Below, piece after piece: positions 8,832 to 41,055 of a stretch of DNA of 47,960 nt. Under the pieces are notes generated by a model. It had not been told where the DNA came from, searched no databases, and saw only the letters and a program-made list of their open reading frames with translations. The stretch is from NCBI GenBank assembly GCA_023663945.1, contig JAMPGL010000031.1, positions 1-47,960 of the forward strand. The letters run 5' to 3'. This DNA comes from Lachnospiraceae bacterium. GTDB lineage: Bacteria > Bacillota > Clostridia > Lachnospirales > Lachnospiraceae. Every line of letters begins with the position of its first letter. Within the stretch, counting starts at the first letter, position 1. Made by a program: the position numbers and the translations under genes.

Positions 8832-8961
8832 AGTAATTCTCCTTATGTGCATAGATGCAAAAGTGAGCTTCTCAATTGTTATGTTGTTTACTATATCTTA
8901 TACAGTATACCATAGATTCAAAAATAGTAACAGTTCAAACAGACTATTGATAAAAATAGGG

Positions 8962-13406: not shown

Positions 13407-13774
13407 CCAAATCATACAAAAAAGACATACAACTATTAATATCAATATTACAAAGACAAAATGACATCAAAGAAGTAATAAAGCGGTTTGAATGCAATCA
13501 AAATAATTTAGAGCAGGACAAAATGGCTTTTGATTTATGTGCTTTTTATATGGCACAAATAGGCGAAGCATCCAAAATGTTAACGGATGATACTCAAAAT
13601 TCTTTAATGTGTATCAATTCCAGTGTATTAAAGGCATTTAGAAATATGATAGACCACACTTATGAAAAAGTTAACAAGAAATATTTAAAAGCATATATTT
13701 TCAGTATGATAGAAGCAAAGGCGATAACAGAAGTAAAGAATCGGATAAATTATTGTAATGAAAATGCAGAGTAA
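13403..13774 (+). CDS. hepT: HepT-like HEPN ribonuclease toxin
   Basis: The 123-residue all-helical product belongs to the DUF86/HepT group. The HEPN active motif Rx4H followed by xY is present as RNMIDHTY near residue 80. The Arg and His cut RNA, and the Tyr is the residue AMPylated by MntA in studied systems. The ATG at 13403 overlaps the mntA stop; a GTG at 13397 is an alternative start. Together with mntA it forms a probable stabilisation or phage-defence module. Confidence 0.85.
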   Translation: MTKSYKKDIQLLISILQRQNDIKEVIKRFECNQNNLEQDKMAFDLCAFYMAQIGEASKMLTDDTQNSLMCINSSVLKAFRNMIDHTYEKVNKKYLKAYIFSMIEAKAITEVKNRINYCNENAE

Positions 13775-15205: not shown

Positions 15206-15223
15206 TTTTAGGAGGCTGCTTTG

Positions 15224-21430: not shown

Positions 21431-21442
21431 GGGGTGTGTATT

Positions 21443-23035
21443 ATGGAAGAGAAGAAATTAAGAGCCGTATTTTATGCGAGAGTAAGCACAGAGGAAGAAG
21501 AACAGCTAAACGCAATCGAGAAGCAGATTGAAGAAAATATAGATGTCATCCGTGACAAAGGCTGGATTCTGGTTGACAGATATGTTGATAAAGGAATAAC
21601 AGGCACACAGGCAAAGAAGAGAAATGAATATATACGGATGCTGGGGGACATTAAGAAAGATAAATTTGATATTATCGTAGTAAAAGACCAGTCGCGTCTA
21701 CAGCGTAACACCATGGATTGGTACATATTCTTGAATGAAATTGTACAGAATCAAAAGAAATTATATCTATATTTGGAGAAAACATTCTTTGATCCGAAAG
21801 ATAAGTTCATGTTTGGCATTAAAGCAATGATGGCAGAGGAGTACAGCCGTGATTTGAGTAAGAAAGGCAATGCAGCCAAAAGGCGGAGACAGGAAAAGGG
21901 TAAGCCGATTATTACGAACCGCACATGGGGATTTCAAAATATCAACGGAGAAATCCTGATTGATGAAGAAGAAGCAAAACTTGTGATACGGATATATCAA
22001 TTGTTTGCTGATGGATTTGGCGGGCGTGTGGCTGCCAGAATATTGCGTGACGAAGGTATCAGAAACAGGAACGGCAAGACATTATCCGAAAATACCATTC
22101 GTGAAATCGTGAAGAATCCGCTGTACAAAGGCATTGCGGTGATGAATAAAGAACATTTTGACTTTGAATCAAAGAAGCTTATCAAGAATCCTGAAAGCGA
22201 ATGGATTTATAGAAAAGGGATTGTACCCCGGATTGTCAGTGATGATTTGTGGGAAAAGGCTAATGCACAGATAAACAGCAGGAAAACTGTGGACAGGACA
22301 CATAATGTAGGAATCAATAAGGGCAATACGCTATTATCGTCTAAAATCATATGCGGAGAATGTAATTCTAAGTATTGGAGAAACAAAAGGGTGCAAGGCG
22401 TTTACTGGTATTGTAGTGAGGGCGCACGTTCCGGGAAAGTCAGAGAAAAGACAGGAATGAAATGTGTGTCGCTTAATTTAAAGGAAGATGAAATATTATC
22501 TTTGATAGAGCGTTTGGGTAATCAGCTGATTGCGAAGGAAAAGAAAGAAGAAGCGCTGAGCAATGCCATCAGAAAAATATATGCCGGATTATCTGATTCC
22601 GGTAGCTGTGAAAGCATAGAAGATATCCAGTTACAAAAAGAGAAATTACATAAAAGAAAAGATGCTCTTATAGACTTACTGCTGGACAAAACAATTTCAA
22701 AAACTGACTATTATTTGAAAGCTGATGATATTTCTAAGCAGATAGCAACATTAAATGAAAAGGAAATTAGACTGAAAGAGAAGAAGGAAGAGAACGGTGA
22801 GTTGTTTGACCGTTTGAATCGTGTAAGAGCAATATTTGAAGATAAGACAGAAAAAGGAATCGAAGTGCCCCTGATGTGTTCCCATATTAACCAGATTAAG
22901 GTGTATGAAAAAAGAATTGATGTGTACCTTGATTTTTTGAAAGGCGCAGAATGTATGTCAATAAATTATGATAAAAATAGGCGAAAAAACATTTTAGATA
23001 TGCCTATTTGTGTGGGTGGAAAGTTATCCGGATGA
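21443..23035 (+). CDS. Large serine recombinase (site-specific integrase)
   Basis: A 530-residue recombinase. The resolvase domain spans residues 1-150 with catalytic Ser15 in FYARVST and the Arg-rich motif KDQSRLQRNTMDWY. The Recombinase domain follows, then a zinc ribbon (ICGEC...WYC...KC) and a coiled-coil near residues 410-465 rich in Lys/Glu. Proteins of this type insert and excise elements at att sites without a target preference for tRNAs. AAGGGG precedes the ATG at 21443; a GTG at 21434 is also in frame. Together with the broken deacetylase at 20673 it suggests that the left element boundary lies just upstream. Confidence 0.92.
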   Translation: MEEKKLRAVFYARVSTEEEEQLNAIEKQIEENIDVIRDKGWILVDRYVDKGITGTQAKKRNEYIRMLGDIKKDKFDIIVVKDQSRLQRNTMDWYIFLNEIVQNQKKLYLYLEKTFFDPKDKFMFGIKAMMAEEYSRDLSKKGNAAKRRRQEKGKPIITNRTWGFQNINGEILIDEEEAKLVIRIYQLFADGFGGRVAARILRDEGIRNRNGKTLSENTIREIVKNPLYKGIAVMNKEHFDFESKKLIKNPESEWIYRKGIVPRIVSDDLWEKANAQINSRKTVDRTHNVGINKGNTLLSSKIICGECNSKYWRNKRVQGVYWYCSEGARSGKVREKTGMKCVSLNLKEDEILSLIERLGNQLIAKEKKEEALSNAIRKIYAGLSDSGSCESIEDIQLQKEKLHKRKDALIDLLLDKTISKTDYYLKADDISKQIATLNEKEIRLKEKKEENGELFDRLNRVRAIFEDKTEKGIEVPLMCSHINQIKVYEKRIDVYLDFLKGAECMSINYDKNRRKNILDMPICVGGKLSG

Positions 23036-23269: not shown

Positions 23270-23839
23270 ATGGAACAGATTTACAGGATTGGGATTGATC
23301 ATGGTTATGGTAACATCAAAACTGCGCACCACATTTTTGAATCCGGCGTTATCCAGAGGGAAAGGGCATCGGAACTGGCAGGGATGACCGTAGAGTACGA
23401 AGGGAAGCTGTACGAGATCGGCTCCACCCACAAAGAGTACCAGATGGACAAGGTATGGGACGAAGATTATTATATCCTGACGCTGGCGGCTCTGGCAAAG
23501 GAATTGAAGGGGAGGGGTTTATGCCATGCTTCCGTCATCCTTGCGGTTGGTCTTCCCATTAAGTGGATCGGGGAGCAGGGCGGGGATTTCTGGAAATATC
23601 TGATGCGGAATAAGGAAATATCCTTTCGGTGCAACGACACCCGATACCATGTGAAGATTGAGGACGTGGAGGTCTACCCACAGGGCTTTGCGGCGGTGGC
23701 GGCAGATTTATCCAGCTATCAGGGCTTTAACATTGTGGCGGATATCGGAAATGGGACAATGAACGTTATATGGAAAACCTGCTGGCGAAGTCGCTCTGCT
23801 ATTTCTCCAACATGCCTGTATCCTACGCGGTTCATGTGA
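23270..23839 (+). pseudogene. ParM/StbA-like segregation ATPase, truncated
   Basis: Residues 1 to about 167 match actin-like plasmid-segregation ATPases: phosphate-1 motif GIDHGYGNIKT, connector region AVGLPIKWIGEQ and phosphate-2 motif VADIGNGTMNV. At about base 23768 the frame leaves the family and continues with a basic, unrelated stretch to a stop at 23839. The C-terminal half of the actin fold, with the adenosine motif, is missing. The junction ATGAACG coincides with the start of another gene fragment, so a deletion joined the two. A working ParM polymerises to push plasmid copies apart; this one should not. Confidence 0.75.
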
Positions 23840-24894
23840 AAACGTCCGGCAGGGCAGACATAACCATTCTTGACAACCGCAGACTTGCAACGGAGATAAA
23901 GGAAAAGCAGGTAAAAGGGAAATACATCACCGTCAGATATGAGGACGGGACAATAGAGAAAGGGGCATTAAAAACTGAGAAGTTTATCAAGGGACCTTTC
24001 GGGGAGAAAGTCAGCACCGTACACTATGGCTGCGTGGCAGACGACCTCCTGCGACTCAGCCGGAAAGCCTACACCCTCTCCTATGAGGCAGTGAATGAGC
24101 GTTCTTTACCAGCGGCGGTAAGGGAAATCCACAGGAAAAAGGAGCGCGATATTCCAGCAAAAACGAAGAATTTTTTCCGGTCATGGATGGAAGACATAAA
24201 ACTGATCCCGGCAGTCCGGAAGAGCGGTTTCTTACAGAACAAGCCTGATGAAGAACGACTGACTAAATTTAAGGAACTGATGAAAGGGGAAGGATACATA
24301 CGGATAACGCAGGAGATGGCGGTGCAGGCAAAAAAGTTCAAGCTGCCCCGGTATTTTCTGGAAAACGATGGGACTGTCTGCTACGCCCATGAAAAGATGC
24401 CGGAGTTATGGAACCGGAAAGGCGTTTTGTTCCTGATGAAAAAGGAATGGGCGAAGATGCTGGACATTCTTGTAAATGAAAAGCCTGTGCAGTGTTCCAA
24501 AGAGCTTCTTGTGGCAATGAAGATGGAAGCGAAGAACGAGGCATCCAAGGCAGGAGATGAAAAAGATAAAGTTTTGTTTGCAGTTTTGGAAGGCAAGCTG
24601 ACCCACTTTCTGGAATTAACAGACCAATATAATCTGACGCACATTTTTAACGAGCGGGCAAAGGATTGGGAATTGCCGGATTTCATTTCAGAAGCGGAAA
24701 AAGAGAAACTGACCAAGATGTACCGTTTCCCGGAAAGGGAAGTATTTGGGGGAGGGAGAAAAAGCGTCAGGGTGCAGTCAAAACAGGAAAATTTAATCTC
24801 AACTGGCGTAAAAAATAAGCATTTTGGCGTAATAAATGAGGAAATTGACAGCCAAGTGCTGTCACGAAAAAAAGGAGAAATTTCACTGGCGTAA
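23770..24894 (+). pseudogene. Fragment of a conjugative-element protein of unknown function, 5'-truncated
   Basis: The open frame encodes 374 residues and is GC-richer than the cargo that follows. The first ATG (23770) lies inside the deletion junction with parM and has no ribosome binding site, so the natural N-terminus is probably lost. The sequence (SYAVHVKTSGRADITILDNRR, KYITVRYEDGTIEKG, then helical Lys/Glu-rich segments) gives no domain I can name. The last 35 or so codons run through the iteron array at 24804 and do not look like protein. It may be an element backbone gene lying beside the origin region. Confidence 0.45.
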
Positions 24895-24996
24895 ATTTCA
24901 TGCGGATTGGCGTCACTGAAAATAAACTGGCGTAAAAAATAACCGGATTGGCGTCACGAAGTAGCAAACTGGCGTCAAATATACAGATATTGGCGC
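24804..24996 (+). repeat. Iteron-like array with about 21-bp periodicity
   Basis: TGGCGT begins at 24804, 24825, 24887, 24908, 24928, 24949 and 24970, with a degenerate TGGCGC at 24991. Intervals are 21, 62, 21, 20, 21, 21 and 21 bp, that is, one to three times about two helical turns. The motif often extends to TGGCGTMA. Such phasing puts all copies on one face of the DNA and is typical of iterons bound by a Rep or partition/relaxosome protein. It lies just before the mob genes. Confidence 0.7.
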
Positions 24997-25023
24997 TATT
25001 ATAGAAAAATCAGCGGTAAAAAT

Positions 25024-25113
25024 TGGGGTTCGGGGTACTCCCCGACAAGATTTGCATTTCGTGCCCACGAAATGCGTATCTTGCGGCGTTCCATGGAACG
25101 CCCTCTCCCCAAA
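25024..25113 (+). other. oriT-like region with consecutive hairpins
   Basis: Three perfect or near-perfect inverted repeats follow one another: GGGGTTCGGGGTACTCCCC near 25026, GCATTTCGTG-CC-CACGAAATGC at about 25053-25074 and GGCGTTCCATGGAACGCC at about 25084-25101. They lie between the iterons and mobC, where the nic site of mobilizable elements is usually found. The nic position itself cannot be placed. Confidence 0.5.
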
Positions 25114-25129
25114 AAGAAAGGAGCGGCAC

Positions 25130-25477
25130 ATGGCAAGACCGAAAGGCGAAAATACGCTGCGGAAGCACTTCAAACTGACAGAAGAGACTGCAAGAATCTT
25201 AGCGGAGCGTTCCAAAGCGGAAAATATGAATGAATCAGAGTACATCCGCTATCTGCTCCTGAACCAGTCGGAGCATCCAAGAAGTAGGGAATTAGAGTTA
25301 GAGATAATGCGACTGCGGAATGAGATAAATAAGATTGGTGTAAATATCAATCAGATAGTAAAAAATAATAATTCCCATGTATATAGGGAAGGTGATAAAA
25401 TAAAGATGTTACATTTGATGAATGAAGTTAGGCTTGCTTTGATTGAATTCATGAAACACCTAAAAATTAATTATTGA
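25130..25477 (+). CDS. mobC: MobC-like relaxosome accessory protein
   Basis: A 115-residue protein. A basic N-terminal ribbon-helix-helix-type segment (FKLTEETARILAERSKAENMNESEYIRYLLL) is followed by the MobC family signature (LRNEINKIGVNINQIVKNNN) and a short helical tail. MobC binds oriT and helps the relaxase open the nic site. The ATG at 25130 follows AAAGGAG; the open frame upstream to 25052 runs through the oriT hairpins and is not coding. The gene should be followed by the relaxase, but a 5.4-kb cargo gene starts 20 bases after its stop. Confidence 0.85.
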   Translation: MARPKGENTLRKHFKLTEETARILAERSKAENMNESEYIRYLLLNQSEHPRSRELELEIMRLRNEINKIGVNINQIVKNNNSHVYREGDKIKMLHLMNEVRLALIEFMKHLKINY

Positions 25478-25497
25478 TGCACAGACGAGAGGTTATT

Positions 25498-28400
25498 ATG
25501 AAGAGAACAGATAACATTATTTTACACTTAAGTGATTTACATTTTTCAACAAAATTATTCGGAACAGATAAAGCAAATTCAGATGGTGTATTGAAAGAGT
25601 TAACGGAGATATTAAAAACTGTTGATTGGAAACCAACAATTATTTGCATTACGGGGGATATTGTAGATAAGTACGATATTGGAGGGTTTGCTCTAGCAAA
25701 AACATGGATAAAGAACTTGGCTGAAATACTTAGCGTGCCGATGGAAAGAGTTTTGATATGTCCAGGAAATCATGACTGTTCACGTGATATATCAATTTGC
25801 CCAGAAATAAATGTTACAGATTCGCAAAAGGCAGATCAAATACTATCATATCCGATACCAGACTATTTGTTGAAAAGATTTGGTCAATATAATGCCTTTT
25901 GTCAGGAATTAGGTATAGTTCCTTATAAGTTTATGGGGGAAGAATCATATTTAGTTGGTACGAGAATAATTGATAATATAAGTTTTTGGGGGTGTAACAG
26001 TGAGTGGTTTTCATTTCATGACAAATCGGAATTATGGCTGGGCAAAAATTATTTAGAGCAAATGAAGCAGCAGGATGGTCAAGAAAATAGTGATATTAGG
26101 ATCGCTATTATGCATCATGGAACAGAATCAGATTTTGCTGAGAAGGAAAAAGGATTTTATGAAGATAGAAGACCAGCGTTGAGATATTTATGGTCTCTTT
26201 GTAATATGCTTTTATTTGGGCATACGCATGAAGGATCAATTGGCAAACCAAGTTATATGGAAAGTAATTGTTGGAGTGTACGTGCAGGGGCAACTAATAT
26301 TAATGAAAAATATCCTAACAATGTGAATTTATTAAAGATACAAAGTGATGGGTTTGAATTAAGACATATTATTTTTTCACCAGCGCAATTAGGAAATCGC
26401 TGGACAATAGAACGGCCTGAGAAGAAAAACTTTTGGAAATTACAAACAGCAACTTTAGAGGAAGAATCTTGTTTTAGTACTGATAGAATCAGAAAATTAA
26501 TGAAAGATTATGCACAAGAGGTAATTGAAAACAAGATAAGAGAAATAAATTGTCCGCCCAATAGTTTAAAGCAGGAAAAATTAAAGGTAGGGCTTGAGCG
26601 TATTCGTAATGAATTGATTAATGGAAAAGAAGAAAGAAATAGTAAAAACGACTTAACATCTTTATATAATGTAATTGAAAATAATAAAAAAGTGCTGCTT
26701 TTTGGAGAATTAGGAATGGGAAAAAGCACATTGATGGCGCAAACTGTAATTGATATTTTGGAGAATGGAGAAGAGGCTATTCCGATTTTTGTACCAGCAA
26801 AATCTTTAACATTGACGGATGAAAATAATGCAATCGAATTGTGTGAAGAGATAGATCGTTTTTTAATAGGAAGCTTTTTATTCAAAAATTCTTTTCAGGA
26901 AATGATCTTGAATGTAAAGAAAGTATTTCTTTTTATTGATGGTTTGGATGAAATTAATATCATACATGTTAAAATATTATTGAGGCAGATTGAAAGGCTG
27001 ATGGGGGCTTATCGTAATCTGGCAGCGGTAGTTTCTACCAGAGTGGCTGAAATTGGTGGAGTTAATATTGCACAGTGGACAGTGTGCGAGATACCTCCAT
27101 TGGATATGGAACAAAGAAAAAGAATGTTATTGCATGAAGCGGAAGCTCACGGGAAAGTAGGACAGGAAAAAGATATATTTGTACAGAAGAGTATGGGAAT
27201 TATTAGAAGGAATCCTTCTATATATGGATTATCCAATACGCCTTTATCTATAAGATTATTATATAAATCTTTTGATTCGGATTTGGATATAGAGAAATTA
27301 ACAGTGGGTGATTTGTTATTTGATCTATTGAAAATGCGTGCAGCGGAGTGGAGTGAATTGGATTTAAAAGATAATACAGATAATAATTATTTAACAGCAT
27401 TTCCAACAGATGATGAGAAAATCTATCTGGTTGGCAGAGTAGCTTACGAGGCATTATCTAATGAAGTATTGTCCGTAAAAAGTGCAAAACTAATTGTAAA
27501 AAGTCTTATTCAGAATCCGATGTTTAATAACAATCTGGTTGCAGATGATGCTATAAAGACATTGATTTCTAATGGACTAATCAGTACAGGCAATAGAATC
27601 CTCTTTACCTACCAGCCATTAGCTCAGGTCGCGGCGGGATATTACATGGCAGAGGAAATTATTAATGAGAGACTGGATATAAATCAGATACCAACAGAAT
27701 TGTGGCGGGAAATTGCATTTGCAGGCAGTATATTAAGAAATTGGAAATTATTGACAAAGTACAAAGAGCTTTTCAAAAATTTTATCAAGAAGCTACCGTA
27801 TGGAAATAGTAGTATGGTATATATAATCAGTTATATATGTAATGAATTGATGGATGAGGATATTGCTGTTTGGTCTTTGGAATGTGTAAGTAAAGCAGGA
27901 TTTAGACCTCTTTGGTATTATGAAAGAGAGAGGAATTACTCTGTTACAGTTATTGCTAAAATGATTGTTTTGGCAGGTGACAAAGGGACAGACTGGCTTA
28001 TTGAGGAATACTTAAATCTGAGAATTCCTTTAATTAACAAGGGAAGTAGATTTTTACATGATTTTCTGGAACAATGGGTTGTATTAGTTGAAGGACGGTT
28101 AAGCAGTGAACAAAAGGAAAAACTGAAAAAGATAATTAGAGTCTTAAACTTTGGGAGCAGCATTGCCTATTTTTCTATTAGGGAAGTGTTGTGTTATTTG
28201 CTGCCTGAAGAGTTTGAAGTTGCAGACAGGCTGGACTGTGTTTTACAGTTGGCATGTAAAGAAGAATTTTATTATTGGGGGCAAAAGCAGTTCTGTCAGA
28301 TGGCATCAAATAATAAGGCTATATGTAATTTAGTTTTAGAAAACAGCGAGCATAGTATAAGTGCATTGTATTGGTTGGAAATTAATGATAATGAAATTCC

Positions 28401-30894
28401 ACCTGTGACAGTTATTAAGAATTTGTTACGGCACGTATATGCTGGAAAAGATAGAATTAGTGAGGATAGCAGAACTTTATTGGAAAAATGTATTGCTCGG
28501 ATTGGGCATAACAGATGGAAAATTATTTTAAGGAGAATTATTGCTGAGGGTGATAAAGCACAGGCAGCAGCGGCAGTAGAGTTAGTTAAATATGAGAATG
28601 AGAATTTGTTTTTTATTGCAAAAGCACTGGCAGATGGCATGGTTAACGCTCCGGCTCATTGCATTTATGAACAGACAATGGAATTAGTAGTGCATATGAT
28701 GCAGAAAGAAAATGTAGAATGGAGCGAAATTTTATTTGATAGGGCGCATTTTGTAGCTGGGGCAAGTTCAGGATGTTATAGGATTTTTTTAAAATATCTT
28801 TTGGATATGGAAGAGGTAAGAGTAGATTTATTTGTGGGATGTATTAAGCATATTGGTCCTTACACTTTGCCAAGGTATGCAGAAATCAGGGAACTGTTTG
28901 TTCAAATTTTGAAACGCGTAGAATATAGAAGTGCATTGATTAAAGCATTGGATTCTTATGATGGAAAGATACGAGAAGCAGCTAGTATGATTTTGGCGGT
29001 CTGTGATAAGAATGATAATGGAAATGCTCTGATAATGGCCATTCTTGGTATGCATGATGGCACTGAATATAATGAGTGGCATAAGTTTCTTGCTTCTCAA
29101 AAATATAATGACATAACATTAAAACATTTACTGTCAATGGTTGATTCGTTGATTGGAGAGCAAAGGATATTGGTGCTGGTAATACTGGCATATAATGGCG
29201 TTAAAATTACTGAATACAATAAAGAAGAAGTGGTTAATGCGAAGTTAAATTGGAAATATTTTTATATCAATGAAATTGATTTGAGTGATTTTGAGTTAAG
29301 TGACGAAAATGTCTTTAAAAAATTATATGAACAGGAAAAAGCGGACAATATAGAATATGATGTTGCAAAAACTTTATTATGGAAATACTATGATAAATTA
29401 TGTTTAGAGGAGAGGATAAAATGTATTCTTTCAGTGTGGGCGAATGGTTCGGTTCCTAATATTGAAGAAATAATTTTTAATGTGTCTCAACCTGAGATTG
29501 GAAATCTGTTTACTAAGTACAGAGAGAATTATTCGCAAAGCAAAAATTATAAAATATTAAGGTGCTTTAACTTTGAAGATGAATTGTGTATCGACTGGAA
29601 GGGTCTTGTATGGGAGATTTTTTGCAATGATATAGATTTAATTGGAATGGATAAAGATGAGATAGGATTACAGTGGTTATTGCTGGGAAGAAAAAATCCA
29701 GTCTATGGAAAAGCAATGGGCGAAGAGATAAGGAAGGTAATCGACGATGAAAGATTGCAGAAAGACAGATGGCTGGAAAAATATCAGTGGCTATTAATTT
29801 TGGTTGATGAGTTTACAGATTATGATAAAAAAATTTTAGCAGAGCATGTACATATGGATAGAAAAATTATGTATGAAACTTCCAGTTCGCTTATATGGAG
29901 ATTGGGAGAAGAATTATTAACTGGAAAAATAGAAATAACTGAAAAAGAAATAAAAAGGAGAGAGGAAATTGGAGATGTTGATTTAAAATTGTTAGAAACG
30001 ACAAAGGAATCAGAATTATTACAAAAAGATACTTTAGATATTGTGTTTGCAAAAGCTGAAAATGATGAAGTATTAGAAGACGATTTGTTGACAGATATTG
30101 AAGAGCAAGGGAAAAATGGCATATTAATTGGAGCAATGCTTCGATATATTTACGGAAGAAAAATGACTGTAGAAGCTGGCTTTGAATGCAATAAGATTTT
30201 CTTTACGATTGCCAGAGTTGAATCAAAAGAGTTTCAGAAAATACTGTCATGTGTTAGAACAGAATTTTCTTATAAAATTCGGTATGACTTAGAATTTAAA
30301 CGACAGTATAGTGAATTAATTATGAAAAAAATGCAAAATTGTAGGGATGATTTGCAAAAAGATTTTGTAATGTATGAATTTACTAAAATGAATAAAGAAG
30401 GGATGACAATAGCACAATTAGAGAATGTATTAATATACCTATTTGGATGTGATTCTATGAATATGTATGGAATGCACATTATGGAAAATATATTGCCTAT
30501 TATAAAAAGTGTGTCTAATATCGAGGAAAAAGAGAAAATTTCTGAAACGGTTTATAGATGTTTATTAAAGAATGAATATTCGTCTGATAATGAAAAAATA
30601 TTTAAGAGAAGCTCATTTTGTGATATGGCGTTAGTAGTTGTTTATTGGTGGCTGAAGGGTGATGTAACTGATTTTGGGATGAAATTATTTGCAAATGGCA
30701 TGACTAATTTTTTCTATGAAAAAGAGAGACGAGGATTAGAAGAGAAAGAGAAATCATTTATGGAGAAATATGAAGAGTTTATAAAATTAATTGAATTTCT
30801 CACAAATGATATGAAAGAAAAAATCTTGTTAAAATTGTATGATTATCCGCTGTTAGAAGCAAGAGTAATGGGGAAATTACTGAAAGGTATTTAG
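25498..30894 (+). CDS. Metallophosphoesterase-NACHT STAND ATPase with long helical C-terminus (candidate anti-phage defence protein)
   Basis: A 1,798-residue protein. Residues 1 to about 300 form a calcineurin-like metallophosphoesterase with all metal motifs visible: HLSDLHF (Asp13, His15), TGDIVD (Asp54), GNHD (90-93), MHHG (206-207) and GHTH (241-244). Residues 395-620 form a NACHT-type P-loop ATPase: Walker A GELGMGKST at 403-411, Walker B VFLFIDGLDE at 476-485 and VVSTR at 511-515. The remaining 1,150 residues are helical and repetitive, as in sensor arms of STAND proteins. By family logic, ligand binding at the C-terminus triggers ATP-driven oligomerisation and activates the effector. 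The ATG at 25498 follows GAGAGG. The gene is visibly more AT-rich than the flanking mobC and relaxase, so it is later cargo. Confidence 0.8.
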   Translation: MKRTDNIILHLSDLHFSTKLFGTDKANSDGVLKELTEILKTVDWKPTIICITGDIVDKYDIGGFALAKTWIKNLAEILSVPMERVLICPGNHDCSRDISICPEINVTDSQKADQILSYPIPDYLLKRFGQYNAFCQELGIVPYKFMGEESYLVGTRIIDNISFWGCNSEWFSFHDKSELWLGKNYLEQMKQQDGQENSDIRIAIMHHGTESDFAEKEKGFYEDRRPALRYLWSLCNMLLFGHTHEGSIGKPSYMESNCWSVRAGATNINEKYPNNVNLLKIQSDGFELRHIIFSPAQLGNRWTIERPEKKNFWKLQTATLEEESCFSTDRIRKLMKDYAQEVIENKIREINCPPNSLKQEKLKVGLERIRNELINGKEERNSKNDLTSLYNVIENNKKVLLFGELGMGKSTLMAQTVIDILENGEEAIPIFVPAKSLTLTDENNAIELCEEIDRFLIGSFLFKNSFQEMILNVKKVFLFIDGLDEINIIHVKILLRQIERLMGAYRNLAAVVSTRVAEIGGVNIAQWTVCEIPPLDMEQRKRMLLHEAEAHGKVGQEKDIFVQKSMGIIRRNPSIYGLSNTPLSIRLLYKSFDSDLDIEKLTVGDLLFDLLKMRAAEWSELDLKDNTDNNYLTAFPTDDEKIYLVGRVAYEALSNEVLSVKSAKLIVKSLIQNPMFNNNLVADDAIKTLISNGLISTGNRILFTYQPLAQVAAGYYMAEEIINERLDINQIPTELWREIAFAGSILRNWKLLTKYKELFKNFIKKLPYGNSSMVYIISYICNELMDEDIAVWSLECVSKAGFRPLWYYERERNYSVTVIAKMIVLAGDKGTDWLIEEYLNLRIPLINKGSRFLHDFLEQWVVLVEGRLSSEQKEKLKKIIRVLNFGSSIAYFSIREVLCYLLPEEFEVADRLDCVLQLACKEEFYYWGQKQFCQMASNNKAICNLVLENSEHSISALYWLEINDNEIPPVTVIKNLLRHVYAGKDRISEDSRTLLEKCIARIGHNRWKIILRRIIAEGDKAQAAAAVELVKYENENLFFIAKALADGMVNAPAHCIYEQTMELVVHMMQKENVEWSEILFDRAHFVAGASSGCYRIFLKYLLDMEEVRVDLFVGCIKHIGPYTLPRYAEIRELFVQILKRVEYRSALIKALDSYDGKIREAASMILAVCDKNDNGNALIMAILGMHDGTEYNEWHKFLASQKYNDITLKHLLSMVDSLIGEQRILVLVILAYNGVKITEYNKEEVVNAKLNWKYFYINEIDLSDFELSDENVFKKLYEQEKADNIEYDVAKTLLWKYYDKLCLEERIKCILSVWANGSVPNIEEIIFNVSQPEIGNLFTKYRENYSQSKNYKILRCFNFEDELCIDWKGLVWEIFCNDIDLIGMDKDEIGLQWLLLGRKNPVYGKAMGEEIRKVIDDERLQKDRWLEKYQWLLILVDEFTDYDKKILAEHVHMDRKIMYETSSSLIWRLGEELLTGKIEITEKEIKRREEIGDVDLKLLETTKESELLQKDTLDIVFAKAENDEVLEDDLLTDIEEQGKNGILIGAMLRYIYGRKMTVEAGFECNKIFFTIARVESKEFQKILSCVRTEFSYKIRYDLEFKRQYSELIMKKMQNCRDDLQKDFVMYEFTKMNKEGMTIAQLENVLIYLFGCDSMNMYGMHIMENILPIIKSVSNIEEKEKISETVYRCLLKNEYSSDNEKIFKRSSFCDMALVVVYWWLKGDVTDFGMKLFANGMTNFFYEKERRGLEEKEKSFMEKYEEFIKLIEFLTNDMKEKILLKLYDYPLLEARVMGKLLKGI

Positions 30895-30917
30895 AAAAGA
30901 GAGCAAGGAGGAGGGCT

Positions 30918-31589
30918 ATCGCAATTACAAAAATATCCTGCATCCACCAGACAGGAAAACGATACATGGCTATGCACCTTGCAAATGCCATTTCCTACAT
31001 TACGGACGGAGAGAAAACGCAGGGAGGCGTTCTGGTGGGAAGCCATAACTGCAGCGCAGATACCGCCTTACAGGAGATGCTTGCGACAAAGAGGAAGTTC
31101 GGGAAGCCGGATAAGCGGCAGGGATACCACTTTATCATATCCTTTAAAAAACAGGAAGTGAGACCGGAAACCGCTATGGAGATCACACAGAAGTTTGTGG
31201 AGAGGTATTTCGGTGACAGCTTCCAGTGTTTATATGCCACACACGATAATACGGAACACGTCCACAGCCACATTCTTTTCAACAGTGTTTCATGGCGCAC
31301 CGGAAGGAAATACCGCTATGAAAAGGGAGATTGGGCAAGGGAGATACAGCCTATTGTCAATGACCTCTGTAAAGAGTATGGTCTTTCTATACAGGATATT
31401 GAAATGGGGACGGAAGAAAAAAAGCCAAAGAAATGGGACAAAACAAAACAGGGAATTTTCAGATGGGATCGCCAGATCAGCCTTGATGTGGAGGATTCCA
31501 TTTCTTTTGCAAATGACTATGGAAATTTTCTGAAATTGATGGAGATAAAAGGCTATGAAATAAAGCAGGGAAATAAAGCAGGGAAATGA
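30918..31589 (+). pseudogene. MobP-type relaxase, N-terminal part, broken by a frameshift
   Basis: The frame reads AITKISCIHQTGKRYMAMH, then NAISYITDGEKT, with the likely catalytic Tyr in SYITDG, and the metal-binding motif THDNTEHVHSHILFN. This is a MOBP-type relaxase that should nick oriT and lead transfer. AAGGAGG at 30905 points to a start at 30918, but the codon there is ATC, not ATG; the next ATG is 30966. At 31558-31583 a 13-bp tandem duplication shifts the frame and creates a stop at 31589. The second half continues in the next frame from 31609. Transfer by this relaxase is therefore unlikely. Confidence 0.8.
31558..31583 (+). repeat. 13-bp tandem duplication disrupting the relaxase
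   Basis: AAATAAAGCAGGG occurs twice in a row (31558-31570 and 31571-31583). Removing one copy restores an uninterrupted frame reading GYEIKQGNEETYLKPMDEKR into the following open frame. Confidence 0.9.
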
Positions 31590-31608: not shown

Positions 31609-32805
31609 ATGGATGAAAAGCGGTTTATCCGCTTGACAGATATTTCAGCCCATTACACAAAGGAAGCAATAGAAAGCCAGATTGAAAAAGGTATCCATGG
31701 AGAAGCCAGCAGGGAAGAAAACCGTACCCCAAGAATCATCAGGTGCAGGAAAAATTATAAAAAGTATATTCCGCTTTCCCCATACCAAAAGGCTTTCTAC
31801 GCAAAGATGTACCGCTCCGGTCAGCTAAAACGCAAGCCCTACAGCCAGATGTGGAGATATAAAGAGGAAGCTGCAAGGTTTGAAAAGTTGCAGTCGCAGT
31901 ACCTGTATCTGCACAAAAACAATATCCGCTCCGCAGAAGAATTGGAAGACCGGAAAAAGGATATCAGCATGGACGAACTGCATTTCGGGGAATTAGGGAC
32001 AGGGAAGAACAGCGACAGGAAAACGAAGACTGCCTTATTTATCGTCACGCCAGATTCTGATAAGTCCTACGCGTTTCTAATCGGGATGCTTTATGAGCAG
32101 TTGATGCAGGAATTATATTTTCAGGCGGATACGAAATACGGCGGCAGGCTCCCCATCCATGTGAGCATGTACCTTGATGAATTTTATAACACACCTTTAC
32201 CCGATTCCTACTTAAATTTCTTAAGCACCATGCGGAGCAGGGAGATTTCAAATGTTATCGTGGTGCAGAATATCGCACAGATAGTGGCGGAGAATGTGGA
32301 CGAAGTGGAAACTGTCATGGAGCAGGCACAGCAGGTACTTTCGGATATTTATGGTGATAACGTGGTGTTTACCATGTCTGATGCTGGAAGCAAGATGGAA
32401 GCGGCGTCAAAATCCAATGAAACTTTGACACTCCTTTTGATGGCAATGGCGACCATCGTATTTATTGTGGGAGGTATCGGCATTATGAATGTGCTTTTTG
32501 TGTCGGTAAAGGAGCGTACCAACGAGATTGGTATCCTCAAAGCAATCGGCTGTGACCAGAAAGATATTTTGGTAGAATTTCTACTGGAAGCAAGCTGCAT
32601 CAGTCTGGTAGGGGCTGTGCTGGGCGTTCTGGTATCCTTGGGGATTACACCGATCATAGAGAGCTTTTCGGTACGGGTAGAGCTTTCGGCTTGGGGCGCT
32701 GTCCTGTCCCTGCTGTTTGGTGTGCTGACGGGAACCATTTTTGGTTTTTATCCTGCGTTTAAAGCATCACGCCTGCTTCCTGTAGTGGCATTGAATAATG
32801 AATAG
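31609..32805 (+). pseudogene. Three-way chimera: relaxase C-terminus, VirD4 coupling-protein fragment, MacB-type permease C-terminus
   Basis: Three unrelated pieces share one 398-residue frame. Residues 1 to about 118 (RLTDISAHYTKEAIESQIEKG, YRSGQLKRKPYSQMWRYKEEAARF) are the C-terminal region of the relaxase. Residues about 122-225 (GDRKT-like NSDRKTKTALFIVTPDSDKSYAFL, LPIHVSMYLDEF, RSREISNVIVVQN) come from the ATPase core of a VirD4/TraG coupling protein, without its Walker A. From about residue 226 the sequence is the end of a MacB-type ABC permease (IVFIVGGIGIMNVLFVSVKERTNEIGILKAIGC, then three more membrane helices to ASRLLPVVALNNE). Junctions lie near 31970 and 32280. Only the permease tail could retain any role, alongside the ATPase gene downstream. 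Confidence 0.8.
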
Positions 32806-32890
32806 ATTTGCGAATAAATTCATGAATAACGGGAAAGAAGCCTGCAAAAAGGCAGGAATTTGTAACGCTTTGGAACGGAGGAAAAAATGA
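32798..32890 (+). CDS. Tiny coupled open reading frame (30 residues), doubtful
   Basis: An ATG at 32798 overlaps the permease stop, and its TGA at 32888 overlaps the ATG of the next gene (ATGA). The product is a basic 30-residue peptide (MNRFANKFMNNGKEACKKAG plus a short tail with a second Cys). It has no ribosome binding site of its own but could be translated by coupling. It may be chance or a small peptide linked to the exporter. Confidence 0.25.
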   Translation: MNRFANKFMNNGKEACKKAGICNALERRKK

Positions 32891-33564
32891 GTAAAAGCAG
32901 GATCATTGATATGAGGCAGATCAATAAAGGCTATATGCTGGGCATGGATAAGGTTCCGGTACTGAAGAATGTGGATTTTCTGGTGGAGAAGGGGGAATTT
33001 GTAGCGATACTTGAACCTTCCGGTTCGGGGAAGACCACCTTGATGAACATTATGGGATGCATGGATGTGGCGGATTCGGGGGAATATTATCTGGACGGGC
33101 AGCCTGTCCACAGCATGGCGGAAAAGGAACTGGGGGCAATCCGCAACCGGGAAATCGGTTTTATTTTCCAGAACTATCAGTTGATACCCACCTACAACAT
33201 CATGCAGAATATTATTATGCCTCTGGTGGTGCGCGGGATGACTACGAAAGAGGCGGAAGCAAAGTGCCTGCCTGTCATTAAAATGCTGGGGATCAGCCAC
33301 AGGCTGAAACATAAACCTTCGGAACTTTCAGGAGGGCAGAAGCAGAGGGTATCCATAGCAAGGGCGCTGGTGGGAGAGCCGGTATTGCTCCTGGCAGACG
33401 AGCCTACGGGCGCTTTGGATTCGTCCAGCGGAAAAGATGTGCTGGAGCTGTTCGAGCAGCTTCATGAGATGGGAAATACGATTGTAATGATCACACATGA
33501 TTTGAATGTGGCAAAGGCGGCGGAAAGGATTGTCCATATCGTAGATGGGTGTCTGGAGCAATAG
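32887..33564 (+). CDS. MacB/LolD-type ABC transporter ATP-binding protein
   Basis: The 225-residue product has the ABC signature LSGGQKQR, Walker B VLLLADEPTGALDS, Q-loop IFQNYQLIPTYN and H-loop MITHD, as in the antimicrobial-peptide and macrolide export group. The Walker A reads EPSGSGKTT: the first glycine of the GxxxxGK loop is Glu, one base change (GAA for GGA) from the norm. Activity may be reduced. CGGAGG precedes the ATG. Its permease partner upstream survives only as the C-terminal part of the chimera, so the transporter looks incomplete unless another permease serves it. Confidence 0.88.
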   Translation: MSKSRIIDMRQINKGYMLGMDKVPVLKNVDFLVEKGEFVAILEPSGSGKTTLMNIMGCMDVADSGEYYLDGQPVHSMAEKELGAIRNREIGFIFQNYQLIPTYNIMQNIIMPLVVRGMTTKEAEAKCLPVIKMLGISHRLKHKPSELSGGQKQRVSIARALVGEPVLLLADEPTGALDSSSGKDVLELFEQLHEMGNTIVMITHDLNVAKAAERIVHIVDGCLEQ

Positions 33565-36258: not shown

Positions 36259-37611
36259 ATGGATAACAATTTATATGAAAACGTGTATGAAAATGTGTAT
36301 GAAAACAAAACAGACCCGGCAGAGGGAACAAAGGCAAAAAAGAATTGGAGCGGAAAGAAGGTTGCTGTGCTGGCCTTGTGCTGCATAGTTTTGGGAGGAG
36401 CCATAGCAGGCAGCGGAAGTTATTTTTACATGCACAGGCAGAACCAGGAAAGCGTAAAGAATGCAGAGAAACTGCCGGTATCTACCGTTATGGAGGGCGT
36501 CAGGGAAAAATCGGTGATTGATGTAACTCATATTGATACCAGCAAAGAGATGACACAGGCAGAGGTTTATGCTGCCAATGTCAATTCCACAGTGGGTATT
36601 ACCACATCAGTCACAACTAATTATTGGGGATTTCAGACCACATCCGCGGCAGCCGGTTCCGGGTTTATTATTACAGATGACGGATATATCGTAACCAACT
36701 ATCATGTGATCGAAAATTCGAATTCCATTAAGGTTTCCCTTTATGACGGCACCTCTTATGAGGCGGAGTTGATTGGTTATGACGGGAGCAATGATATTGC
36801 AGTGCTTAAGGTTGACGCGAAAGGGCTTACGCCGGTGGTGCTGGGTGATTCTGATAATCTGAATGTAGGTGACAGCGTAGTTGCCATTGGAAACCCATTG
36901 GGAGAATTGACGTTTTCCCTGACGTCCGGGGCAGTCAGCGCATTGAATCGGGAAGTTACTTTTTCCAACAACATGACAATGGATCTGATTCAGACAGACT
37001 GCGCCATCAATTCAGGGAATTCCGGCGGCGCCCTGTTTAACCTTTACGGGGAAGTGATCGGGGTTACGAACGGCAAGTATTCCAGTTCCGGAATGGGAAG
37101 CACCTCCATTGATAACATAGGTTTTGCGATACCGATCAGCCATGTGAAGGGGATTGTAGAGAGTATTATAGAAAATGGATATATTGCAAAGCCTTACATA
37201 GGTGTGACCGTCATGGATGTGAGTGAAGAAACGCAAAGTTATGGACTGCCCAAGGGCGCAGCCGTTAAGGAGATTACGGAGGATAGCCCGGCATCGAAGG
37301 CGGGACTTAAGGAAAATGATATTATCACGGAGGTCAACGGAAATGAGATAGACGGCAGCAGAGGGCTTGTAAATGCGATCGGGAATACTTCTGCAGGAGA
37401 TGAAGTGACGCTTACTGTTTATCGACAGGGGAAATCCGTTGAGATAAAAATTGTAGTCGAGGAAAAGGTACAGTCAGCTAAGGCAGATGAAGAAGCAAAG
37501 CAGCAGGCGGAACAACAGTCGCAGCAGCAGATAGAGCAGCAGCCGGAACCGCAGAATGGACAGGAAGGACAGATGTTTCTTCCATGGGGCAGTTGGTTCG
37601 GAAACTGGTAA
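36259..37611 (+). CDS. htrA: HtrA/DegP-like membrane-anchored serine protease
   Basis: A 450-residue protein: a cytoplasmic N-terminus with a YENV repeat, a membrane anchor at residues 34-58, a trypsin-like domain with His149 (NYHVIEN), Asp179 (SNDIAVLKV) and Ser255 (NSGNSGGAL), and one PDZ domain from about residue 310 (KPYIGVTVMD, SPASKAGLKENDIITEVNG). The tail is Gln-rich and ends in WGSWFGNW. The protease degrades misfolded exported proteins on the outer face of the membrane. AAAGGAG precedes the ATG. The upstream regulator box links it to the neighbouring two-component system, as in CiaRH-htrA of streptococci. Confidence 0.93.
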   Translation: MDNNLYENVYENVYENKTDPAEGTKAKKNWSGKKVAVLALCCIVLGGAIAGSGSYFYMHRQNQESVKNAEKLPVSTVMEGVREKSVIDVTHIDTSKEMTQAEVYAANVNSTVGITTSVTTNYWGFQTTSAAAGSGFIITDDGYIVTNYHVIENSNSIKVSLYDGTSYEAELIGYDGSNDIAVLKVDAKGLTPVVLGDSDNLNVGDSVVAIGNPLGELTFSLTSGAVSALNREVTFSNNMTMDLIQTDCAINSGNSGGALFNLYGEVIGVTNGKYSSSGMGSTSIDNIGFAIPISHVKGIVESIIENGYIAKPYIGVTVMDVSEETQSYGLPKGAAVKEITEDSPASKAGLKENDIITEVNGNEIDGSRGLVNAIGNTSAGDEVTLTVYRQGKSVEIKIVVEEKVQSAKADEEAKQQAEQQSQQQIEQQPEPQNGQEGQMFLPWGSWFGNW

Positions 37612-37682
37612 TTTTACAGCAGGAGGAAAGTTTGTACTTCGCGGTGCAGACTTTCAGGCTGAGAGAAAGGAAAGGATATAGC

Positions 37683-38771
37683 ATGATAACAGTTGAGCAT
37701 TTAACAAAACGGTATGGGGATTTTACAGCTGTCAGTGATTTGTCTTTTGAGATTGAGGAGGGGCATATATATGGCTTCTTAGGTCCTAATGGCGCAGGAA
37801 AATCCACCACAATGAATATTATGACGGGGTGTTTGTCGGCTACGGAAGGATGCGTGAAGATTGGCGGGCATGATATTTTCGAGGAGCCTGATAAGGCAAA
37901 GAGGCTGATTGGATATCTTCCGGAGCAGCCGCCTCTTTATATGAATGAAACGCCTGTAGAGTATTTGAAATTTGTCGGGGAAGCAAAAGGCATAAAAGGG
38001 CAGAAGCTGGTTGAACAGATAGAAAAGGTAATTGCGCAGACGAGACTGGAAGATGTAAAAAACCGCTTAATTTCAAAACTTTCAAAAGGATACAGGCAGA
38101 GGGTTGGAATCGCGCAGGCATTGCTTGGCAACCCCAAAGTTATTATTCTGGATGAGCCGACCGTAGGGCTTGACCCCATACAGATTATTGAAATCCGTGA
38201 CCTGATCGGACAGCTTGGTCAGGAGCATACGGTCATATTGAGTTCCCATATTCTTTCGGAAGTGCAGGCGATCTGTGAGAAAGTTCTTATCATCGCCAAA
38301 GGGAAACTGGTGGCGTTTGACGAGCCGGAGAATCTGGAAAAACTTCTGTTGGCAGCCAATTCTGTTTCTTTTACTGCAGAGGCAGAAACGGATGAGATTG
38401 ATGGGATTTTAACCGAAATGGAAGCTGTCGCCGACTGGCGGATGAAAAAGCTGGAAAACGGCGGTATCCATGTAGATGTGCAGATTGAATACGGAGAAGC
38501 ATCTGACGTCTGCCGCAGTATCTTTTTTGCCTTTGCGGACAAGGGAAAGGCGCTTTTGGAACTGACGAGCAAAAAAGCGAATCTGGAGGATGTATTTATT
38601 GAACTGACGGAAAGTGATGTGGCAGAAAATAATGCAATAGGAAGCGGCTCAGAAATGACAAGGACAGAAGAAAATGAAACAAGGGAGCAGAAAACAGGAG
38701 AGAAAATTATCATAAAAGAGGAAGATATTGAGATGAATGAAACCGAAGAAAGCGAGGTGGAAAATAAATGA
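37683..38771 (+). CDS. ABC transporter ATP-binding protein (GldA-like)
   Basis: A 362-residue ATPase with Walker A GPNGAGKST, signature LSKGYRQRVGIAQALLG, Walker B VIILDEPTVGLDP and H-loop LSSHIL, typical of the Gld/NatA group. An acidic C-terminal extension (about 45 residues, rich in Glu, Thr and Lys) is unusual. The ATG at 37683 follows GAAAGGA, 71 bases after the htrA stop. It overlaps the permease gene by four bases (ATGA). It powers the downstream permease pair; the substrate is unknown, and envelope-linked export is the usual guess for this group. Confidence 0.9.
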   Translation: MITVEHLTKRYGDFTAVSDLSFEIEEGHIYGFLGPNGAGKSTTMNIMTGCLSATEGCVKIGGHDIFEEPDKAKRLIGYLPEQPPLYMNETPVEYLKFVGEAKGIKGQKLVEQIEKVIAQTRLEDVKNRLISKLSKGYRQRVGIAQALLGNPKVIILDEPTVGLDPIQIIEIRDLIGQLGQEHTVILSSHILSEVQAICEKVLIIAKGKLVAFDEPENLEKLLLAANSVSFTAEAETDEIDGILTEMEAVADWRMKKLENGGIHVDVQIEYGEASDVCRSIFFAFADKGKALLELTSKKANLEDVFIELTESDVAENNAIGSGSEMTRTEENETREQKTGEKIIIKEEDIEMNETEESEVENK

Positions 38772-39631
38772 TTGCTGTATTAAAACATGAACTATCCAGT
38801 TATTTCCATTCCCTGACAGCTTATATTTTTGGGGCATTTCTATTAGCTTTTGTGGGAATAGGAGCCATGATATATAACATTCAGCAGGCAGTAGCGAATT
38901 TTGAATATGTGCTCAGGTTTGTCAGTCTTGTTTTTGTGGTGCTTATCCCGGTCCTGACAATGAAGGTAATCGCTGAGGAGCGGAAACAGAAGACAGACCA
39001 GCTTCTTTATTCACTGCCGCTTACAACCACACAGGTGGTAGCTGGAAAATATCTGGCATTGCTGGTCATTTATTTTATTCCATTGTGCCTTGTTTCCGTA
39101 TATCCGCTGATCTTTGCGCAGTTTGGGGAAGTATATCTGCTGACTTCCTATGGTTCCCTTGCGGCATTCTTCCTTATGGGGGCGGCGTTGATTGCCATCG
39201 GCACGTTTATCTCATCGCTGACAGAGAACCAGGGATTTGCGGCGGGCATTGCAATACCACTGCTGTTGTTCAATTATTACAGTGTCCGCCTGGCGGAGCA
39301 TGTTTCGTCAACGGCTTTGGGCTCTGCGCTGGCTTTGCTTGTCCTCAGCATTCTCCTGGGGGTAGTGATCCGTGTCCTGACAAAAAATGAGAATGTGGCA
39401 TATGCAGTATCCATTATTTTGATAGGGGCGATATGTATCACATACTTTATGGACAGTAAGGTGTTTGAGGGGCTGCTGCCCAAGATTATGACGAAACTGT
39501 CGCTTTTTGAACGGTTTTATACATTTGTATCCGGCGTTTTTGATATGACTGCGGTTGTCTACTATCTGACAGTGGTTGCCTTTTTCCTGTTTCTGTCGGT
39601 GCAGTCGCTGGAGAAGAGGAGGTATAACTGA
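38768..39631 (+). CDS. ABC-2-type permease (GldF-like)
   Basis: A 287-residue integral membrane protein with six hydrophobic helices. The start MIAVLKHELSSYFHSLTAYIFGAFLLAF and the segment MKVIAEERKQKTDQLLYSLPLTTTQVVAGKYLA are typical of the GldF/ABC-2 subfamily. The start overlaps the ATPase stop, and the stop overlaps the ATG of the GldG-like gene. It forms the membrane channel of the complex encoded by the neighbouring genes. Confidence 0.9.
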   Translation: MIAVLKHELSSYFHSLTAYIFGAFLLAFVGIGAMIYNIQQAVANFEYVLRFVSLVFVVLIPVLTMKVIAEERKQKTDQLLYSLPLTTTQVVAGKYLALLVIYFIPLCLVSVYPLIFAQFGEVYLLTSYGSLAAFFLMGAALIAIGTFISSLTENQGFAAGIAIPLLLFNYYSVRLAEHVSSTALGSALALLVLSILLGVVIRVLTKNENVAYAVSIILIGAICITYFMDSKVFEGLLPKIMTKLSLFERFYTFVSGVFDMTAVVYYLTVVAFFLFLSVQSLEKRRYN

Positions 39632-41055
39632 TGAAAGAAAAGAAACTCGGAAACCGCATCGCCATGCAGGGCGGTTCCTATTCGCTTATTATTACGGCAA
39701 TCGTGCTCGCCATATTGATTGCGGTGAACATTCTGGCGTCGGCGCTGCCGAAAACGCTGACACAATATGATATCAGTTCCAGCAAATTGTATTCTGTCAC
39801 CAGCAACACAAAGGTAGTGCTGAATGCCCTGGAGAAAGATGTAACGATTTATTGGATCGTGCAGTCCGATAAGGAAGATGATGTGATAGACAATTTATTA
39901 GCCAAGTATGAGAGCCTGTCGGAACATATCGAGGTAGTCAAAAAGAATCCGGATGTCTATCCGACTTTTGCGGAGCAGTACACTTCGGAAGAAATAGCGA
40001 ATAACAGCCTTGTTGTTGAGTGCGGGGAACGGAGCCGGTTCATTGGCTACAATGACATTTATCTTCAACAGCCAGATATGGTGTCCTATTCTTACAATGT
40101 TTCCTTTGACGGGGAGGGCGCGATCACATCCGCAATCGACTATGTGGTAAATGAGGATCAGCCTAAAGTGTATGTATTGGAAGGACATGGGGAGGAAGAA
40201 CTTTCCGCAGTGCTCAAGGAACAGATTGAAAAAGAGAATATAGAGCTGAGCAATTTCTCCCTGCTGACTGCGGATGAGATTCCGGAAGATGCCGATGGCA
40301 TTCTGATCTATGCTCCTGCCAGCGATATATCGGAGGAGGAAAAGAATCTGCTTGCAGAGTATGTTTCGGGCGGCGGAAAACTGATGGTGATGGCAGGACC
40401 GACGGAAGACGGCACATTGTCCAACCTTTACAGTATCCTGGCGGATTATGGCGTGGAGACGGTAGACGGGGTTGTGGTGGATACCGACCGGGGGCACTTC
40501 GCATTTCAGGCACCGTACATCCTTCTGCCGGATATTGCCAGCAGTGAGATCACTGATCCTCTGATTGAGGAAAATTATTATGCGATCATGCCGATTGCGC
40601 AGGGGCTTGTGGTGCAGGAGACAGGTTCAGAGGCGGTGACGCAGCTCCTTACCACGTCGGAATCTTCTTTCAGCAAGAGCGCCGGGTATGCATTGTCCTC
40701 CTATGAGAAGGAAGAGGGAGACACAGACGGTCCGTTTGCACTGGCGGTTTCGGTTGTGGCAGAGAACGAGGGCAGGATTGTATGGTTTGCCTCGTCACAC
40801 TTTATGGATGATATGTATAACGCCTATTCGTCCGGCGCAAATCTTGATATGGCAATGAATGCCATGTCCTCCATAATAGGGGAAAGTGAAGCGGTGGCTA
40901 TCCGCAGTAAATCGCTGAATTATAATTACCTTACCATCAGTGATTCCACTTCTTCTTTCTTAAAAACAATTATGATCGCGGTATTTCCTCTGGTGTATCT
41001 GGGAATTGGAATCTGTGTGACAGTGGGGAGGAGGAGAACAAATGAAGCGAAATAA
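39631..41055 (+). CDS. GldG-family ABC transport auxiliary protein
   Basis: A 474-residue protein with an N-terminal membrane helix (SLIITAIVLAILIAVNILASAL), a large extracytoplasmic domain of the ABC-transport auxiliary type (YDISSSKLYSVTSNTKVVLNAL, PKVYVLEGHGEEELS, DGILIYAPASDISEEEKNLLAEYVSGGGKLMVMAGP) and a C-terminal membrane helix before an RRR tail. GldG proteins pair with GldF in a transporter of unclear cargo. The start overlaps the permease stop by one base (TGATG) and the end overlaps the DUF4340 gene. Confidence 0.9.
   Translation: MKEKKLGNRIAMQGGSYSLIITAIVLAILIAVNILASALPKTLTQYDISSSKLYSVTSNTKVVLNALEKDVTIYWIVQSDKEDDVIDNLLAKYESLSEHIEVVKKNPDVYPTFAEQYTSEEIANNSLVVECGERSRFIGYNDIYLQQPDMVSYSYNVSFDGEGAITSAIDYVVNEDQPKVYVLEGHGEEELSAVLKEQIEKENIELSNFSLLTADEIPEDADGILIYAPASDISEEEKNLLAEYVSGGGKLMVMAGPTEDGTLSNLYSILADYGVETVDGVVVDTDRGHFAFQAPYILLPDIASSEITDPLIEENYYAIMPIAQGLVVQETGSEAVTQLLTTSESSFSKSAGYALSSYEKEEGDTDGPFALAVSVVAENEGRIVWFASSHFMDDMYNAYSSGANLDMAMNAMSSIIGESEAVAIRSKSLNYNYLTISDSTSSFLKTIMIAVFPLVYLGIGICVTVGRRRTNEAK

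Follow-up and report, generated by a model that had tools for sequence, protein, structure and literature searches.

Results

Architecture of the MPE–NACHT–arm protein

We analysed a 47,960-nt stretch of contig JAMPGL010000031.1 from a Lachnospiraceae bacterium, called the window below, in which a gene at 25498..30894 (forward strand) encodes a protein of 1,798 amino acids (aa) made of a metallophosphoesterase (MPE) domain, a NACHT-type ATPase region and a very long C-terminal arm. With a probability of about 0.67, this protein would be a single-gene STAND immune receptor in which clustered MPE domains destroy nucleic acid or nucleotides, and its gene would be cargo of a conjugative element. 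The frame is uninterrupted and carries the long C-terminal arm, as the original prediction of a metallophosphoesterase–NACHT protein inside a mobilization operon had read it, and a GAGAGG stretch resembling a Shine-Dalgarno sequence was seen by eye just 5' of the ATG. Residue numbers below are those of this protein, and all its parts lie on the forward strand.

The MPE domain (25498..26421, approximately aa 1-308) was matched by the Pfam Metallophos profile (PF00149) over aa 8-245 with an E-value of 2.6e-10 and a score of 41.5 bits, which passes the cut-off of 21.5. This curated profile score and five metal-binding motifs place the domain in the calcineurin-like metallophosphoesterase superfamily. 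The metal-site residues read at the motif positions are D13, H15, D54, N91, H92, H207, H242 and H244, and all eight are invariant in alignments A1 (7 rows) and A2 (8 rows). SMPDL3A and Rv0805, the latter a cyclic-nucleotide phosphodiesterase, are among the best fold matches.

The ATPase region (26653..27357, approximately aa 386-620) was delimited by Pfam, model, relative and fold matches. It has a Walker A motif GELGMGKS (26704..26727, aa 403-410) with K409, an acidic Walker B motif LFIDGLDE (26929..26952, aa 478-485) and the motif VVSTR (27028..27042, aa 511-515), presumably the sensor-like motif of NACHT proteins; together with the NACHT fold, these motifs assign the region to the NACHT/STAND ATPases. 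K409 is kept in every row of A1, but A2 has two proteins from viral contigs (L116 and L117) with GR for GK. The stretch aa 395-543 matches two bNACHT proteins, L087 and L052, both of which pass the Pfam NACHT cut-off themselves. The metal motifs, both Walker motifs and VVSTR thus stand where the original prediction had placed them, and the significant metallophosphoesterase and NACHT matches on which it had staked itself were both obtained. PHROG 18297, a family of unknown function, matched aa 391-593 better than Pfam NACHT did (E 6.6e-12); we dropped it as support for a NACHT assignment, since its function is unknown.

The C-terminal arm (27358..30891, aa 621-1798) was matched by no NCBIfam model, by nothing in a PDB profile search, and by no relative in viral contigs or plasmids; among 295 genomes of the order, the single match was the source genome itself. 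A Pfam scan of aa 521-1798 found no family at an E-value of 0.05, and the identical scan does find SNaCT in L052 and L087. Searches with the full protein gave a similar picture. A pattern scan of GTDB contigs, which catches close relatives only and may leave out the source genome, matched 17 stretches, of which one, the metagenome contig L002, was confirmed. One stretch was matched in viral contigs and not confirmed, two phage records matched in the NACHT part alone, and none of the 43 matching plasmid records covered 80% of the query. Matches were found in 19 of 397 genomes of the family and in 10 of 391 genomes of the class, the source included in each; the other 18 and 9 were partial, and across these overlapping sets the arm was present in the source genome only. 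Judged by these searches, the arm (~1,180 aa) is an orphan with L002 as its only relative. From its position and from STAND proteins in general, it is likely to be the sensor.

A proposed mechanism and its precedent in DS-8

DS-8, found with DefensePredictor (Science 2026), is a validated anti-phage system in which one protein carries both a metallophosphatase and a NACHT domain; changing any one of three residues, two in the metallophosphatase and one in NACHT, abolished defence (PMC13092281). The MPE–NACHT architecture itself is therefore already published and validated against phages. The original prediction's reading of a NACHT protein with an MPE effector is supported, with a smaller novelty than it implied.

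We infer activation by oligomerisation and an anti-phage role for the window protein from the DS-8 and bNACHT precedents. At rest, the NACHT switch would keep the protein inactive. The arm would recognise a component or an effect of an invader, either a phage or a rival element, upon which nucleotide exchange would let the NACHT domains oligomerise and bring the N-terminal MPE domains together. The clustered MPE domains would then hydrolyse phosphodiester bonds in the nucleic acid, or the nucleotides, of the infected cell, and infection would be stopped.

The MPE module in other proteins and its possible substrate

The substrate is the least certain point. Nuclease activity is our tentative first choice, at a little under even odds. 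Somewhat less probable, though a serious alternative, is hydrolysis of free or cyclic nucleotides: the receptor would be the same, and its MPE would hydrolyse a cyclic or signalling nucleotide, so that a change of signal or depletion of nucleotides would be the defence. The fold matches to SMPDL3A and Rv0805 favour this alternative. SMPDL3A cleaves cGAMP, and the DS-8 authors use it to suggest a nucleotide-signal substrate, leaving the nucleotide degraded by DS-8 to be identified (PMC13092281). Kaur et al. place a calcineurin-superfamily phosphodiesterase, a predicted nucleotidyl phosphodiesterase, among the enzymes that cleave cyclic nucleotides (PMC7159879). An immune cyclic nucleotide seems a poorer candidate, because a related MPE acts downstream of a CBASS-type cyclase, which argues against such a substrate.

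That related MPE is found fused to SAVED. Pfam recognised SAVED in 3 of the 15 other MPE proteins scanned (L048, L049 and L036), and the MPE part of one fusion, L048, was the best match outside the source genome in the class scan (30% identity). The neighbours of two MPE–SAVED genes were searched, and in both operons the other genes are recognised by the PADLOC models for cyclase, E1-E2 and JAB. MPE–SAVED genes lie at 3422-5110 of L130 and 2500-4203 of L131, as well as in L036, and two of the three are in type II CBASS-like operons. We found no literature linking metallophosphoesterase, SAVED and CBASS together in the library searched.

Other MPE genes also have defence-type surroundings. In the following, DS-8-like denotes nine proteins, of which L022, L023 and L042 were assigned by the DS-8 model and the other six by their architecture plus a match to PDC-S60 or in tblastn. 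At seven plasmid MPE loci, a GASH-annotated gene is next in five, a Klebsiella grimontii locus has a DS-8-like protein and one has a SUMF1-type protein. The GASH neighbours fit one GTPase-centred subsystem of Kaur et al., in which calcineurin-superfamily phosphoesterase is the commonest effector domain (PMC7159879). In L133, a LmuA homologue lies 299 nt from a DS-8-like gene. Many of the weak MPE matches are short stand-alone MPE genes. The original prediction had been open to challenge if homologues sat mainly among housekeeping genes; relatives with the same or a related head turned up as a match to the DS-8 model, in CBASS-type operons, next to GASH genes and once near a LmuA homologue, not in housekeeping contexts alone.

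Purifying selection on the gene, and broken transfer genes in the window

L002 is a Lachnospiraceae metagenome contig that carries the MPE–NACHT gene in the same place, at equal length and 91% identity; 15.9 kb of it is covered, the contig starts 96 nt before mobC, and no integrase is seen in this part. No indel separates the two copies in 5,397 nt. The ratio of nonsynonymous to synonymous substitution rates (dN/dS, NG86) was 0.134 over all 1,798 codons; taken separately, the MPE has 0.050, the linker 0.364, NACHT 0.124 and the arm 0.158. The gene has been kept by purifying selection over the divergence of this one pair, in which both lineages are pooled, in agreement with the earlier suggestion that the frame is selected for.

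The transfer genes tell a different story in the two contigs. Downstream of the gene, L002 has a 511-aa relaxase, a DUF3801 protein, a 608-aa TraG/VirD4 protein and a PrgI protein. The window has a frame-broken, truncated relaxase of the MobA/VirD2 type (30966..31589, forward strand, 207 aa; Pfam Relaxase, 2.2e-38), and relative to L002 it is without about 4.1 kb between relaxase and TraG, the remnants running into an FtsX gene. They form a chimeric frame of 398 aa (31609..32805, forward strand) in which remnants of a relaxase and of a TraG/TraD C-terminus are joined to the C-terminal domain of an FtsX permease, with Pfam matches to TraG-D_C, T4SS-DNA_transf and FtsX. Window positions 31971-32282 match 10991-11302 of L002, and the frame stands directly 5' of an ABC ATPase gene (32887-33564). 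This frame marks the edge of a decayed element. The earlier description of the transfer genes as decayed thus holds for the window and fails for L002, in which they are intact.

Such damage to the adjacent relaxase and TraG genes is what one would expect if the MPE–NACHT gene were itself decaying cargo with no present function. That is highly improbable in view of the dN/dS of 0.134, the absence of indels and the retention of the catalytic residues, although the pair test pools both lineages and would miss a recent loss of constraint in that of the window.

The gene occupies the junction between mobC and relaxase

Immediately upstream is an intact mobC/NikA-like relaxosome accessory gene (25130..25477, forward strand, 115 aa); a longer frame of it, 25052-25477, matched Pfam NikA-like at 2.4e-9 and MobC at 2.8e-5. 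The mobC stop is 20 nt 5' of the MPE–NACHT start, and the MPE–NACHT stop is 71 nt ahead of the first ATG of the relaxase. The gene has a GC content of 0.326, compared with 0.404 for the mobC frame and 0.444 for the relaxase, which bears out both the position and the AT-richness noted in the original prediction. This difference in composition suggests acquired cargo.

We searched for the L002 relaxase in 250 genomes of the family and found a match in 114. We compared the 20 best places outside the source genome, which come from 15 genomes and share 34-47% identity where they align. A mobC relative lies directly 5' of the relaxase in all 20, and none has a large insert between the two genes, these being relatives at 34-47% identity and not near ones. 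The aligned stretches of the two genes are 59-98 nt apart in 19 of them and 461 nt apart in L101. In 15, the relaxase could start, mostly at a TTG, within the end of mobC; there is no such overlap in L098, L101 and L107, and L103 and L106 gave no readable result. The MPE–NACHT gene therefore occupies a normally tight junction, the empty site being known from distant relatives only.

A search of 24700-31100 for terminator-like sites gave none, against 2.6 expected. Since the gaps are also short, co-transcription of the gene with the transfer genes is plausible. This makes it conceivable that the targets are rival conjugative elements or plasmids rather than phages, the protein being expressed with the mob genes and excluding competitors during or after transfer. 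The lack of a large insert at this junction in the 20 relatives speaks for this explanation too. On the other hand, DS-8 (PMC13092281) and the bNACHT proteins both act on phages, the window copy is intact next to broken transfer genes, and co-transcription is a prediction, so that we consider exclusion of competitors unlikely. We give still less credence to the stronger proposal that the receptor is wired into the conjugation operon, so that it would be produced along with the transfer proteins and would protect the element, or the cell receiving it, from phages or rival elements during transfer.

Two other observations concern the surroundings. Just 5' of mobC, at 23270-24894, there are an actin-like frame (ALP_N, ParM-type) and an overlapping frame without a Pfam match, possibly a split gene. 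Two large serine recombinases are encoded in tandem at 44270-47829 with a 1-nt overlap, and a third, at 21434-23035, precedes the mob operon.

Evidence that weighs against an immune receptor

Several results count against the receptor that we propose. The Pfam NACHT profile matched aa 399-547 with an E-value of 9.2e-5 and 22.8 bits, under its gathering score of 26.7. We call the ATPase region NACHT-type and not 'Pfam NACHT', because this score is below the cut-off while the other lines of comparison indicate NACHT. The comparison with DS-8 was made against NCBIfam model NF053861 (DS8_antiphage; 994 positions, equivalog cut-off 790) and not against the sequence of DS-8 itself; the aa 1-620 piece aligned over aa 10-515 with model positions 1-483 of 994 at 112 bits (E 1.8e-32), far under the cut-off, and the whole 1,798-aa protein gave no DS-8 match at an E-value of 0.1 in the NCBIfam scan. 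No defence gene was recognised beside the MPE–NACHT gene, its neighbours having been scanned with Pfam only and not with PADLOC. The name 'Endonuclease' given by PADLOC to the MPE–SAVED effector is a label, not an activity test. Finally, in an MPE tree of 52 rows (62 gathered, 10 duplicates or partial copies removed), the pair formed by the window and L002 joined 16 stand-alone rows and not the 34 others. The value of 62/85 leaves this placement unsupported, and it carries a long-branch warning.

The tree fails to show descent from an effector MPE, because of the unsupported 62/85 and because long branches may meet falsely. The 16 stand-alone rows, open frames of 371-418 aa that are unannotated here, group to the exclusion of the window pair at 100/100. 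Holding the window pair with the DS-8-like rows and L032 (approximately unbiased test, p-AU 0.21) or with the SAVED-containing group (p-AU 0.35) was not rejected. Profiles built from each group scored the window MPE at 75.6 bits for DS-8-like, 73.2 for GASH, 65.8 for SAVED, 54.9 for N-extended and 54.7 for stand-alone proteins. The NCBIfam scores were 112 for DS-8, NACHT included, 56.7 for DS-9 and 21.4 for SbcD. On balance, the window MPE head appears somewhat nearer to the effector kinds than to stand-alone MPEs.

A STAND ATPase with a housekeeping or regulatory duty in the element, for example control of relaxosome assembly, and with no defence role would explain the location inside a mobilization operon, the lack of an adjacent defence gene by Pfam and an MPE tree compatible with kinship to stand-alone MPEs. 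Such a duty is nevertheless very unlikely: the gene is missing from the relaxase operon in all 20 relatives, its AT-richness suggests acquired cargo, and its MPE and NACHT parts can be aligned to the DS-8 model. The immune receptor remains our preferred explanation.

Other features of the window

A gene pair at 13086-13774 encodes an MNT nucleotidyltransferase and a HepT-like protein, a HEPN–MNT module of the toxin–antitoxin type. A leucine-rich repeat protein of the BspA type is encoded at 15221-16303. The stretch 36259-42529 encodes an HtrA-like trypsin–PDZ protease and, after it, an ABC transporter accompanied by proteins of the ABC_transp_aux and DUF4340 families, an arrangement that presumably resembles Gld-type ABC systems.

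Comparison with known systems

Like the window protein, DS-8 is one protein with an N-terminal MPE followed by NACHT, and this order and the catalytic residues are present in the window protein. The window protein exceeds the DS-8 model by 804 residues, and no NCBIfam model covers aa 621-1798. A six-frame genome search with the DS-8 model concurs with the protein score, at 110 bits. Because it scores below the 790-bit cut-off, the protein is not a DS-8 by NCBI's rule. Of 150 genomes of the family, 70, including the source, had some match to the DS-8 model, mostly to MPE or ATPase parts alone; two genomes exceeded 190 bits (L022/L108 and L023), and none passed the cut-off. DS-8-like MPE proteins of 1,036-1,081 aa also occur in the window's family (L022, L023, L024, L026 and L027). 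The K. grimontii DS-8-like gene, used as a DNA query against E. coli genomes, had no match. An NTPase tree of 17 rows, from which L138 was excluded for want of a usable frame, separates the window from the DS-8-like proteins at 95/98, but a common clade costs 0.07 log-likelihood (p-AU 0.48). We had considered an independent origin of the window fusion and withdrew it, because the tests fail to reject a common clade.

The MPE–SAVED CBASS effector (PADLOC PDLC00736) shares a related MPE head as effector. Its sensor, however, is SAVED; it has no NACHT, and its operon also encodes a cyclase, E1-E2 and JAB. Pfam found no SAVED in the window protein and no CBASS cyclase among 30 window proteins; the sole nucleotidyltransferase domain (13086-13406) belongs to the 106-aa MNT-type protein, 12 kb away. 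In PADLOC 2.0.0, searched at an E-value of 1 with Avs and other systems included, we obtained only the candidate system PDC-S60 (best stretch aa 8-248, 8.1e-30, with a match to the NACHT stretch as well) and a weak mad8 match (4.3e-4).

The bNACHT proteins L087 (NACHT–SNaCT11) and L052 (NACHT–SNaCT14) share the NACHT stretch; no MPE was found in them, and they have a short C-terminal SNaCT in place of the giant arm, a domain that Pfam did not find in aa 521-1798 of the window protein. L087 (5734-7524), annotated as bNACHT01-like, comes from a small Vibrio phage of 14.8 kb with a PM2-type capsid annotation. DS-9, whose first protein (NF053862) matched aa 4-96 at 56.7 bits, and the GASH systems have a related MPE head, but they are multi-gene systems with an MPE protein for which no NACHT is reported or annotated.

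In L115, a viral contig, a 1,185-aa MPE–NACHT–FGE-sulfatase protein (5845-9402) joins MPE and NACHT in one chain as the window protein does, and it resembles sensors diversified by diversity-generating retroelements, the link presumably lying in the FGE and CLec parts. One sensor of this kind combines a phosphodiesterase domain with NACHT, vWA and CLec (PMC10907252). L115 and such targets have a C-terminal FGE-sulfatase or CLec part where the window protein has its arm. A literature search covering mainly PMC, with few subscription papers, found no published MPE–NACHT protein with a comparable arm or in a mobilization operon.

MPE heads are thus joined to, or stand beside, varied sensing or partner parts, namely NACHT, SAVED, GASH and FGE, and the use of one of them downstream of a CBASS-type cyclase makes destruction of nucleic acid or nucleotides directly testable. 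The unusual features of the window protein are its orphan arm and the insertion of its gene between mobC and relaxase. To the known systems it contributes a very large arm lacking relatives, and through its operon position it could link defence to conjugation.
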